This document shows, one piece after another, positions 727-15,313 of a stretch of DNA of 28,142 nucleotides. The stretch spans positions 1 to 28,142 of IMG/VR virus record IMGVR_UViG_3300043436_001302; one strand, given 5' to 3'. Numbering within the stretch: position 1 is the first letter of the stretch; each line of letters opens with the position of its first letter. The notes beneath the pieces were generated by a model, which searched no databases, was not told where the DNA came from, and was given only the letters and a program-made list of their open reading frames with translations. This stretch comes from a virus. Both the position numbers and the translations under genes were made by a program.

Positions 727-921
727 TCATTCCTTGAGATCACTAAAGGATCGACTACGCGGCTCCTGATTAAAAGAGCCAGTAGCAAAGACAACGGTAT
801 CATCGGGAGCAATCTCCCGTTTAGCACGTAGATCCCATCCCGGATGGATGAAATCTGGTAGTCCGAAAATGCGACAAGCCCGAAGGTATTCGTCGCCCTT
901 AAACCCTACGAAGTGAAGCAT
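727..921 (-). CDS. Small hypothetical phage protein (64 aa)
   Basis: I place the start at 921 (MLHFVGFKGDEY...) because GAGGTGA sits a few bases upstream. The longer frame from 966 has no ribosome site, and its start overlaps the promoter motif at 941-979. The product is 64 aa, slightly basic, with no membrane segment or cysteines. Residues such as FGLPDFIHPGWD and DDTVVFATG look like a folded conserved core rather than chance translation. No family is recognised. It is the last protein gene before the RNA cluster and probably shares its transcript. Confidence 0.7.
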   Translation of the reverse strand: MLHFVGFKGDEYLRACRIFGLPDFIHPGWDLRAKREIAPDDTVVFATGSFNQEPRSRSFSDLKE

Positions 922-940
922 TCTGTCACCTCTCAATCTC

Positions 941-979
941 TCACATACTATAGATAATGCCTGCAAGTCTGTTTTTCAA
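941..979 (-). promoter_or_regulatory. Repeated tripartite promoter-like motif, copy A
   Basis: The minus strand reads TTGAAA (979-974), N7, TTGC, N7, ATCTATAGTAT (955-945), then GTGA. The same three blocks at identical spacing recur at 6068-6106. Taking TATAGT as a -10 puts transcription start about 15 nt before the Shine-Dalgarno of the gene at 921. TTGAAA is 21 nt from TATAGT, too far for an ordinary sigma-70 -35, so another activator may be involved. Confidence 0.5.
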
Positions 980-986
980 TGTTTTG

Positions 987-1021
987 TTTTGCATAGCTGC
1001 TATGTTTTTTTTGCATAGCTG
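987..1021. repeat. Two copies of a 13-bp direct repeat
   Basis: TTTTGCATAGCTG occurs at 987-999 and again at 1009-1021, 22 bp apart (two turns of the helix). The first copy continues into CATAG-CTG-CTATG, a small inverted repeat followed on the plus strand by eight T. The pair lies between the terminator at 1021-1058 and promoter motif A, so it could be a regulator-binding site or a remnant of terminator duplication. Confidence 0.5.
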
Positions 1022-1058
1022 GAAAAGAAGAACCCCGAGGCTTTCGCTCCGGGGTTCT
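1021..1058 (-). terminator. Rho-independent terminator
   Basis: AGAACCCCG (1029-1037) pairs with CGGGGTTCT (1050-1058), and a few further pairs close the inner loop around GCGAAAGC. On the minus strand the stem is followed by TCTTTTCC. The strong GC stem with a U-rich tail is typical of intrinsic terminators. It ends the short unit that begins at the promoter 1193-1223 and insulates it from the gene at 727-921. Confidence 0.75.
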
Positions 1059-1192: not shown

Positions 1193-1223
1193 TATTTATA
1201 TCACATTTGGACTGGATTGTCAA
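1193..1223 (-). promoter_or_regulatory. Promoter: TTGACA-N17-TATAAA, overlapping TATAAATA
   Basis: TTGACA (1223-1218) follows the stop codon of the 2OG oxygenase directly, then 17 nt, then TATAAA (1200-1195). The same bases read TATAAATA (1200-1193), the T4 late box. The site could therefore be read by host sigma-70 early and by a late phage sigma later. It drives the short unit 1166-1021. Confidence 0.7.
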
Positions 1224-3519: not shown

Positions 3520-3595
3520 TGGTGCGCCCACCAGGATTCGAACCCGGAACCAGACGGTTATGAGCCGTCAGCTCTAACCATTGAGCTATAGGCGC
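3520..3595 (-). tRNA. tRNA with anticodon CAT (Met, or Ile2 after lysidine modification)
   Basis: Acceptor GCGCCTA/TGGGCGC (one T-G), D stem GCTC/GAGC, anticodon stem GACGG/CCGTC with loop CTCATAA, T stem CCGGG/CCTGG with loop TTCGAAT, discriminator A and encoded CCA. The sequence alone does not separate elongator Met from lysidine-modified Ile; T4 carries the latter type. It is not an initiator. Confidence 0.93.
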
Positions 3596-3600
3596 TTGAT

Positions 3601-3683
3601 TGGTGTCCCCTGCCAGACTCGAACTGGCACTCCGAAGAAGCAGATTTTAAGTCTGCCGTGGCTACCGATTACACCAAGGGGAC
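3601..3683 (-). tRNA. tRNA-Leu(TAA)
   Basis: Class II tRNA: acceptor GTCCCCT/AGGGGAC pairs 7/7, D arm GTG...CAC, anticodon stem GCAGA/TCTGC with loop CTTAAAA (anticodon TAA), an 11-nt variable arm, T stem GCCAG/CTGGC with loop TTCGAGT, discriminator A and encoded CCA. It reads UUA/UUG, codons that this AT-richer phage uses freely. Confidence 0.95.
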
Positions 3684-3684
3684 A

Positions 3685-3760
3685 TGGCGACTCCTGCACG
3701 ATTCGAACGTGCGACCCGCAGCTTAGAAGGCTGCTGCTCTATCCACTGAGCTAAGGAGCC
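3685..3760 (-). tRNA. tRNA-Arg(TCT)
   Basis: Acceptor GGCTCCT/AGGAGTC (one G-T), D stem GCTC/GAGC, anticodon stem GCAGC/GCTGC with loop CTTCTAA (anticodon TCT), T stem GCACG/CGTGC with loop TTCGAAT, discriminator G and encoded CCA. It reads AGA/AGG. It is one base from tRNA-Leu(TAA) and the first tRNA of this group in transcription order. Confidence 0.95.
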
Positions 3761-5533: not shown

Positions 5534-5628
5534 TAGAGCACCCACGAATAAATAGTTGACCAGAACCAGACAAGATATGCGATTAGCGCAATAAAGAGCG
5601 AAACGCGAACAAAAATTTCAAGGGCCAT
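5533..5628 (-). CDS. Small membrane protein, 31 aa
   Basis: ATG at 5628 overlaps the TAA of the 141-aa gene upstream, and the stop overlaps the next start, both as TAATG. The product MALEIFVRVSLFIALIAYL... ending YSWVL has a single 20-residue hydrophobic helix with one arginine near the N-terminus. Its size and shape resemble small phage membrane effectors, but no function can be named. The overlap pattern is the main support. Confidence 0.65.
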   Translation of the reverse strand: MALEIFVRVSLFIALIAYLVWFWSTIYSWVL

Positions 5629-6053
5629 TAGAGCCATCCATCCTGATAGTTGTGAGCCACATAGTCAATCGGAAGCGGAGCCTCGTCGCGCTTGATGTTT
5701 TCTTCCTCAGCGTCTTCCTGAATGTAGATCATTTCCTGAGCGCGCCATTCTTCCTCGCGCTTGATTTCGTCTTCCATCATGCGGCTGAGAAGGTCAATCT
5801 CATGTTCCAGTTCCTCATCGGACATGTCCTTGAGGTTGATGTGGCGCGGGCGACAACCCGTAACATCCTTGTACATCTCCCAAAAGAAACTTTCGTTTTC
5901 GTATCGCTTGAATTGAGCCACGGTCGTGACACCCATCTCAGCCCAGAAATCGAGTTCCTCGACATAAAGACCAGTCCAGCGGTTATCGGGATCTTCGGCT
6001 ACCCAAGCCAGCTTTTCAGCATTGAGGGCAGCCAGGTGTTCAGCAAGGGTCAT
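5628..6053 (-). CDS. Hypothetical acidic protein, about 141 aa
   Basis: The frame opens with MMTETT at 6071, but the third Met at 6053 (MTLAEHLAALNAEKLAW) has GGAG seven bases upstream, and the promoter motif at 6068-6106 overlaps the first two. The protein is strongly acidic and helical, with a coiled-coil-like stretch (SDEELEHEIDLLSRMMEDEIKREEEWRAQ written here in part as LEHEIDLLSRMMEDEIK). It ends HNYQDGWL. No family is known to me. It heads the run of coupled small genes down to 4202. Confidence 0.7.
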   Translation of the reverse strand: MTLAEHLAALNAEKLAWVAEDPDNRWTGLYVEELDFWAEMGVTTVAQFKRYENESFFWEMYKDVTGCRPRHINLKDMSDEELEHEIDLLSRMMEDEIKREEEWRAQEMIYIQEDAEEENIKRDEAPLPIDYVAHNYQDGWL

Positions 6054-6067
6054 GGTAGTCTCCGTCA

Positions 6068-6106
6068 TCATATACTATAGATGGGGATGGCAACCCGGAA
6101 TTTCAA
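6068..6106 (-). promoter_or_regulatory. Repeated tripartite promoter-like motif, copy B
   Basis: TTGAAA (6106-6101), N7, TTGC, N7, ATCTATAGTAT (6082-6072), then ATGA: identical blocks and spacing to the copy at 941-979. Taking TATAGT (6079-6074) as -10 puts the start at about 6068, just ahead of the GGAG that serves the ATG at 6053. The 21-nt gap from TTGAAA to TATAGT is unusual for sigma-70. Confidence 0.55.
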
Positions 6107-6237
6107 GGGTAGTCTTTGCATACCTGCCATGCATCCAGCGCATAGGCTAAGTCATTGATTTCTCGTCCGGCTAAGTTATTGATATCATTGGGTTCGGTCC
6201 AGACAATGGAGGAAGCGGCTGGAGCTGGTGGTTCTGG
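6103..6237 (-). pseudogene. Open frame without a start, probable gene remnant
   Basis: From the TGA at 6240-6238 to the TGA at 6105-6103 the minus strand stays open for 44 codons (PEPPAPAASSIVW... then NDINNLAGREINDLAYALDA). The residues look protein-like but there is no ATG, GTG or TTG in frame. The same frame upstream of the TGA is also open (RPESDWYGYI). It may be a decayed gene, or chance in a structured region, since a long hairpin overlaps its 5' part. Confidence 0.3.
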
Positions 6238-15239: not shown

Positions 15240-15313
15240 TGGAGCGGAGTACGAGATTCGAACTCGTTTCATTAGCTTGGAAGGCTAAGGCACAACCCAT
15301 ATACCAACCCCGC
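15240..15313 (-). tRNA. tRNA-Gly(TCC)
   Basis: Acceptor GCGGGGT/ACTCCGC (one G-T), D arm GTAT/GTGC (with G-T pairs), anticodon stem TTAGC/GCTAA with loop CTTCCAA (anticodon TCC), T stem ACGAG/CTCGT with loop TTCGAAT, discriminator T and encoded CCA. It stands alone, about 11 kb from the other tRNAs, and has a promoter about 70 nt upstream (15384-15412). Confidence 0.93.

Follow-up and report, generated by a model that had tools for sequence, protein, structure and literature searches.

A promoter class with heat-shock-like cores and an upstream palindrome in an uncultured lineage of T4-like phages

Two copies of a motif in a fragment of viral DNA, referred to here as sites 1 and 2, represent a genuine repeat and are members of a class of promoters found in an uncultured lineage of T4-like phages. 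The window, meaning the whole stretch of DNA that was analysed, is a 28,142-bp IMG/VR fragment, and a whole-genome view is possible only through its relatives. The phage is T4-like; its gp43, uvsX and gp41 share approximately 49-60% identity with proteins of cyanophages, and the Methylophilales phage Melnitz and Pelagibacter phages have the closest counterparts of a relative's major capsid protein. The accepted view is that T4-like phages begin infection on sigma-70 promoters and then proceed to MotA or gp55. For the present lineage we favour, with moderate confidence, a reading in which these are early or pre-late promoters whose core would be recognized by RNA polymerase carrying the host heat-shock factor RpoH (sigma32), together with an activator.

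Recurrence of the motif

A first-pass annotation had described the motif TTGAAA-N7-TTGC-N7-ATCTATAGTAT as occurring twice with equal spacing, each time just before a gene, and both observations were confirmed. The two copies match without mismatch and with identical spacing on the minus strand (Table 1); even with up to three mismatches allowed, only 0.01 copies are expected in the window by chance, and two copies arose in none of 100 shuffled sequences. At the same tolerance, no further copy was found in the window. The genes directly downstream start 23 nt (site 1) and 18 nt (site 2) from the inferred +1, with leaders GAGAGGTGACAGA and GGAGACTACC, respectively. The window holds nine tRNA genes (256-569, 1892-1973, 3520-3760 and 15240-15313), eight of them downstream of sites 1 and 2.

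Table 1. Features at the two promoter sites of the window
Feature	Position	Strand	Remarks
Site 1 promoter core, 35-base motif	945-979	-	exact match; orthologues in G001, G003, G004, G006, G009, G010, G011
Site 1 -35 element TTGAAA	974-979	-	preceded by A, giving ATTGAA, 5/6 to RpoH -35 CTTGAA
Site 1 inferred -10 region CATTATCTA	951-959	-	17 bp from TTGAAA to TATCTA; 4/7 to E. coli RpoH CCCCATNT
Site 1 inferred +1	944	-	register from dnaKp1 numbering (PMC10216364) and leaderless relatives
Site 1 activator-like palindrome ACATAGCAGCTATGC	991-1005	-	11 bp upstream of TTGAAA; extra half-site TATGC at 1013-1017
Intrinsic terminator hairpin AGAACCCCGGAGCGAAAGCCTCGGGGTTCT, then T-rich DNA	1029-1058	-	read in the sequence; closes the upstream unit just before site 1
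Gene after site 1, 64 aa, MLHFVGFKGDE..., without assigned function	727-921	-	followed by four tRNA genes (569-256)
Site 2 promoter core, 35-base motif	6072-6106	-	exact match
Site 2 RpoH-type core CTTGAA-N15-CCCCATCTA	6078-6107	-	spacing as in E. coli htpG and groE
Site 2 inferred +1, A of ATGA	6071	-	inferred from register
Site 2 activator-like palindrome GCATGGCAGGTATGC	6118-6132	-	extra half-site TATGC at 6140-6144
Site 2 first IHF-consensus element AATCAATGACTTA	6148-6160	-	consensus match
Site 2 second IHF-consensus element TATCAATAACTTA	6172-6184	-	24 bp upstream of the first
Gene after site 2, 141 aa, MTLAEHLAALNAE..., without assigned function	5628-6053	-	first in a run of small genes

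Further copies, for which a wider scan had been proposed, were found outside the window. On scanning 2.9 million viral IMG/VR contigs, the exact 21-base motif was observed in 73 stretches from approximately 66 contigs, and the reversed pattern, used as a control in the same viral DNA, in none. A relaxed model built from nucleotide profiles gave roughly 150 sites over 1.07 Mb. Searching with a pattern derived from the upstream palindrome described below recovered 87 stretches, and among the new viral ones only L123 resembles a chance match. Alignment of the sites revealed that conservation extends well past the three blocks originally noted, and that the core is conserved before many different downstream genes while the flanks have diverged. 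Coincidence, or a mobile repeat that has no role as a promoter, could appeal only to the presence of just two copies in the window; it is already refuted by the recurrence of the motif, is further opposed by the variety of downstream genes and the kept core, and has a negligible probability.

A palindrome marking a host regulon was rejected, as the combination of palindrome, TTGAA and AGT gave three chance-like matches in 84,980 species genomes. Among the nearest isolates (Melnitz, Mosig, HTVC008M, DLP_6 and S-RSM4) and T4, no exact palindrome was found and neither pattern was clearly above the reversed control, and blastn of the promoter against isolate phages gave chance matches only. Judged by these searches, the promoter class is missing from all six of these phages.

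Register of the core promoter

Anchoring on the palindrome and TTG gave 60 clusters, 57 of which are plausible distinct promoters. Members of this set had to have the palindrome, a TTG and AT close to -11, and they are related by descent, not independent. When the first base of TTGAAA is numbered 0, positions 24, 25 and 27, corresponding to -11, -10 and -8, are A, T and T in 98% of the set. Positions 26 and 28 vary, and TATAGT is found in only part of the promoters. The gap of 21 nt between TTGAAA and TATAGT had been measured correctly. The designation of TATAGT as the -10 element was not upheld, since TCCAGT and TCTAGT stand in its place in relatives, and a universal -10 of this sequence was rejected because it is missing in many of them. 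The near-invariant letters instead place the -10 17 bp after TTGAAA, four bases further upstream, and relatives with TTGACT-N17-TATATT and TTGTAT-N17-TATATT (G020:95744, G020:128668 and G021:2983) point to the same spacing. The mean match to TATAAT is 3.72/6 at a spacer of 21 and 3.13/6 at a spacer of 17, the difference being driven by TATAGT in many members.

The TTGC block is replaced by TCGC, TTCC, CACC or TGTC in relatives and is best regarded as spacer. It had been likened to the MotA box of T4 middle promoters, which is centred at -30 (PMC2988021). In a test for a MotA box (TGCTT core at -30, 12 +/- 1 bp from the -10), TTGC was located at -22 to -19 and was not followed by TT, so the likeness did not survive. 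A transcription start at position 35 is supported by genes that have an ATG at positions 35-40 (G007:2843, L008 and L006). At G007:2843, L008:7408, L006:3381 and G002:52169 the ATG lies at the inferred start, so these mRNAs may be leaderless.

In the 57 promoters, TTGAA is present in 47 and TTGAC in two. C is frequent in front of TTGA and from -15 to -12, and T, nearly invariant at -8, occurs at -7 in 19%. The segment from -15 to -8 reads CCCCATCT or CCCCATAT in 18/57 and ACCCATAT in 5/57.

Resemblance to heat-shock promoters

The -35 element of sigma32 promoters is CTTGAA, and the dnaKp1 sequence is given in the same source (PMC10216364). The core of site 2, CCCTTGAA-N15-CCCCATCT, has this -35 exactly and a -10 that agrees with CCCCATNT at 7/7 letters; the gap from CTTGAA to CCCCAT is 15 bp, inside the 13-17 bp range for RpoH promoters. 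In the E. coli K-12 genome, htpG and groE carry CTTGAA-N15-CCCCATNT, and dnaK P1 is the 14-bp form. By its letters, CCCTTGAA ... CCCCATNT is the consensus of heat-shock promoters. The match is weaker at site 1, which has a -35 of ATTGAA (5/6) and a -10 of CATTATCT (4/7 to E. coli RpoH). Among the relatives, 18/57 match CCCCATNT perfectly and others have CACTATAT or TCTTATCT. In 1.18 Mb of related contigs, the pattern CTTGAA-N13..17-CCCCATNT was counted 10 times, versus 0.2 expected, and each copy was accompanied by the palindrome.

The earlier statement that the motif does not fit sigma-70 alone was borne out. The fit to RpoH exceeds that to E. coli sigma-70 in 53/57 promoters and that to alpha-proteobacterial sigma-70 in 51/57, these being counts of consensus letters and not likelihoods, a crude measure over related promoters that should not be taken as a probability. 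In a test against sigma-70 (TTGACA and TATAAT at 16-18 bp), the mean -10 match was 0.55, with a few TTGACT/TATATT relatives as exceptions. Sigma-54 (-24/-12) was rejected by inspection, as the distances and the GG/GC elements misfit.

A strict RpoH pattern, CCCTTGAAA-N14-CCCCATNTA, was found in 43 stretches of viral contigs, 26 from the T4-like family and 17 from others. Most of these 17 trace to a small number of phages whose conserved promoters share the core, CTTGAAA-N14-CCCCATAT, lack the palindrome and precede an exonuclease-like gene, a HAD-type gene and others. Six loci (L190, L191, L192, L197, L200 and L204) have 2-5 RpoH-consensus promoters each and four (L193, L194, L199 and L205) have one. 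L200 and L205 encode a PHROG-family terminase small subunit or tail terminator and an exonuclease-like protein. This second lineage looks different from the T4-like one.

Upstream elements

The first-pass annotation had not recorded that both sites share a palindrome, (A/G)CATRGCAGSTATGC, at the same distance upstream. Across the class, this element has the form GCATA-N5-TATGC with a further half-site seven bases upstream, and it is nearly confined to these promoters. It mostly ends 11 bp before TTGAA, and in a minority 21 bp before (for example G005:10844, G003:58295, L042:2883 and G019:115981). The two offsets differ by about one helical turn, which suggests a protein that touches the polymerase from the correct face. 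Centred near -54, the palindrome is a likely activator site, and the activator would probably be dimeric. The earlier idea of a promoter class with its own activator stands as far as the class is concerned, and an activator is likely; the reading of TTGC and TATAGT as its functional blocks was not supported.

The consensus for IHF is WATCAANNNNTTR. Two perfect matches, 24-35 bp apart, are present upstream in 20/57 promoters, where 0.008 site is expected per region. Site 2 has such a pair and site 1 has none at the corresponding place, following an intrinsic terminator instead (Table 1). Like the palindrome and its phasing, the IHF-consensus sites are read directly in the DNA. For the repeated ATCAA....TTAGCC, a coding origin (I-x-x-L-A) was considered and a DNA-level signal was preferred, since synonymous positions are invariant. 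A separate group of promoters (G003:13826 in L087, L055:3487, and orthologues in G004, G006 and G009) keeps the core and has another palindrome, GCGAC-AGGTT-GTCGC, approximately 21 bp upstream; this GCGAC-N5-GTCGC group looks as if the specificity of the activator had been swapped.

Neighbouring genes and candidate regulators

Promoters of the class lie between gp41 and the region of tRNA and small genes, beside gp46 and in small-gene clusters; none was seen in the structural block of the contigs examined. The T4-type late-promoter motif TATAAATA occurs in the window at 49-56, 1193-1200 (minus strand) and 1872-1879, separate from sites 1 and 2, and is absent from their -10 positions. In a 167-kb relative it was mildly more frequent than in shuffled sequence (15 versus 6-11). 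The gp55 gene and these motifs mark a separate late class, and structural genes appear to use such gp55-type late promoters. Downstream of a TATAAATA motif, the gene at 1224-1853 of the window matches PHROG ferrochelatase families (5.5e-41).

In six contigs (G001, G002, G003, G013, G017 and G019), a helix-turn-helix protein of 40-47 aa is encoded in the operon of paired promoters, for example at G019:149427-149570 (L158:10127-10270) and G002:51305-51427; it is the first candidate to consider for binding to the palindrome. When 149 proteins from the 167-kb relative were compared with Pfam, no obvious activator appeared among the families listed, at most 25 per table. MotA (PF09114) gave no match in seven related contigs (fragments of 38-167 kb), while the T4 control was detected at 3e-63. 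For the sigma region 2 domain, the only match was a weak one at the gp55 position of G007. At G002:51791-52051 (L078:11991-12251), and in G002 only, an 86-aa protein is encoded that has a helix-turn-helix resembling sigma-70 region 4 (PF08281 over the cut-off).

Proposed mechanism and alternatives

In the mechanism that we favour, RNA polymerase with host RpoH would bind a core in which some 15 bp separate a -35 of CTTGAA from a -10 that is CCCCATNT or nearly so. A dimeric protein, encoded by either phage or host, would bind GCATA-N5-TATGC 11 or 21 bp upstream and contact the polymerase, and at many cluster-opening promoters two IHF-type sites would bend the DNA. The promoters would then drive small genes without assigned function and tRNA-containing units. 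We infer from the arrangement of these elements that RpoH is used and that an activator takes part, as well as when the promoters are active and where transcription starts. The same elements suggest that the host has RpoH and IHF and is a proteobacterium. Several observations speak against the RpoH reading: the -10 of site 1 is weak by the E. coli consensus, some relatives with TTGACT or TTGTAT-N17-TATATT suit a housekeeping sigma, the alpha-proteobacterial sigma-70 consensus, CTTGAC-N17-CTATAT in S. meliloti (PMC2873474), has near-identical letters and register, and the mean match to TATAAT is slightly better at a spacer of 21 than at 17.

In a rival reading, the core is recognized by the host housekeeping sigma, of the alpha-proteobacterial type or as a relaxed sigma-70; the weak -10 would then depend on the upstream activator, and the likeness to heat-shock promoters would be coincidental. 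The canonical 17-bp spacing, the G020 and G021 promoters and the shared register with S. meliloti favour it. The prevalence of TTGAA over TTGAC, the better fit of 51/57 promoters to RpoH, the C residues at -15 to -12 and before TTGA and the strong T at -8 with little T at -7 argue against it, as do C at -12 and A at -7 in site 2; it is the less probable choice, although one that deserves weight. The original picture of a middle class, in which a phage activator replaces sigma-70 region 4 contacts as MotA/AsiA does in T4, with TATAGT as the -10 and TTGC as a box, has become decidedly unlikely. TATAGT matches TATAAT at 5/6 in the window copies, and TTGC is present in both and common in relatives; both blocks vary in relatives, however, the MotA box does not fit in position or sequence, no MotA domain was found in the seven related contigs by the search that detected that of T4, and the conserved extra element is the palindrome near -54, not an element at -30. 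A phage-made sigma-like factor would account for a core unlike that of sigma-70, and the region-4-like protein of G002 is encoded in an operon of the class. That protein is confined to one contig and sigma region 2 gave just the weak match at the gp55 position; a phage-encoded sigma was rejected with only gp55 and this small protein in view, and such a factor is very improbable.

A further alternative, which would hold with either sigma factor, bears on the palindrome alone. The palindrome could be a repressor operator, so that the promoters would be on at entry and later be shut by a phage protein, e.g. the 40-47 aa helix-turn-helix protein, whose gene closely follows the promoter pair in the six contigs named above. 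A position upstream of the -35 at 11 or 21 bp is, however, the geometry of an activator, and a repressor site would usually overlap the core; we consider an operator improbable.

Under the preferred RpoH reading, a broader and more tentative proposal may be made. The T4-like lineage may run its pre-late programme through the host heat-shock sigma, using a set of RpoH-dependent promoters that each carry an activator palindrome specific to the phage and, in many cases, tandem IHF sites, such that the stress of infection switches on phage genes, and the different-looking lineage may use the core independently. If true, phage gene expression would be tied directly to host stress, there would be one reason why several phages stabilise sigma32, and a testable prediction would be available for uncultured phages. 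The defined palindrome provides a handle for seeking the activator.

Comparison with known systems

The E. coli htpG, groE and dnaK P1 promoters have the same CTTGAA -35 and CCCCATNT -10 with 14-15 bp between them, and site 2 has the spacing of htpG and groE. E. coli RpoH promoters drive chaperones, whereas the phage class drives genes without assigned function, has a fixed upstream palindrome and IHF-consensus sites, and deviates in the -10 at site 1 and in several relatives. In alpha-proteobacteria, the RpoH1 consensus is CTTGAA-N15-16-CCTATAT (PMC4843759) and that of RpoH2 is CTTGCC-N15-16-CCTATCT; the CACTATAT and TCTTATCT variants are 1-2 letters off in the same register. Site 2 differs from these in following the CCCCATCT form.

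Among phages, the middle promoters of T4 (MotA/AsiA) are likewise a class that apparently needs an activator besides RNA polymerase; they differ in having the MotA box at -30, whereas here there is none, no MotA was found and the activator-like site is upstream of the -35. The early promoters of T4 and RB43 (sigma-70) are likewise numerous and located in regions of small genes without assigned function. Their -35 is TTGACA rather than the CTTGAA seen here, and the -10 of the present class is mostly not TATAAT-like. Searches of the open-licence literature turned up no description of RpoH-type promoters as a phage-wide set. PMC3486835 cites Frazier and Mosig (1988) for a role of sigma32 in the expression of T4 genes and also reports that Rki of RB43 and CIII of lambda stabilise sigma32. 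These two proteins likewise link phage to host sigma32; they act by stabilising the factor, whereas in the lineage described here it is the promoter class that bears the consensus.
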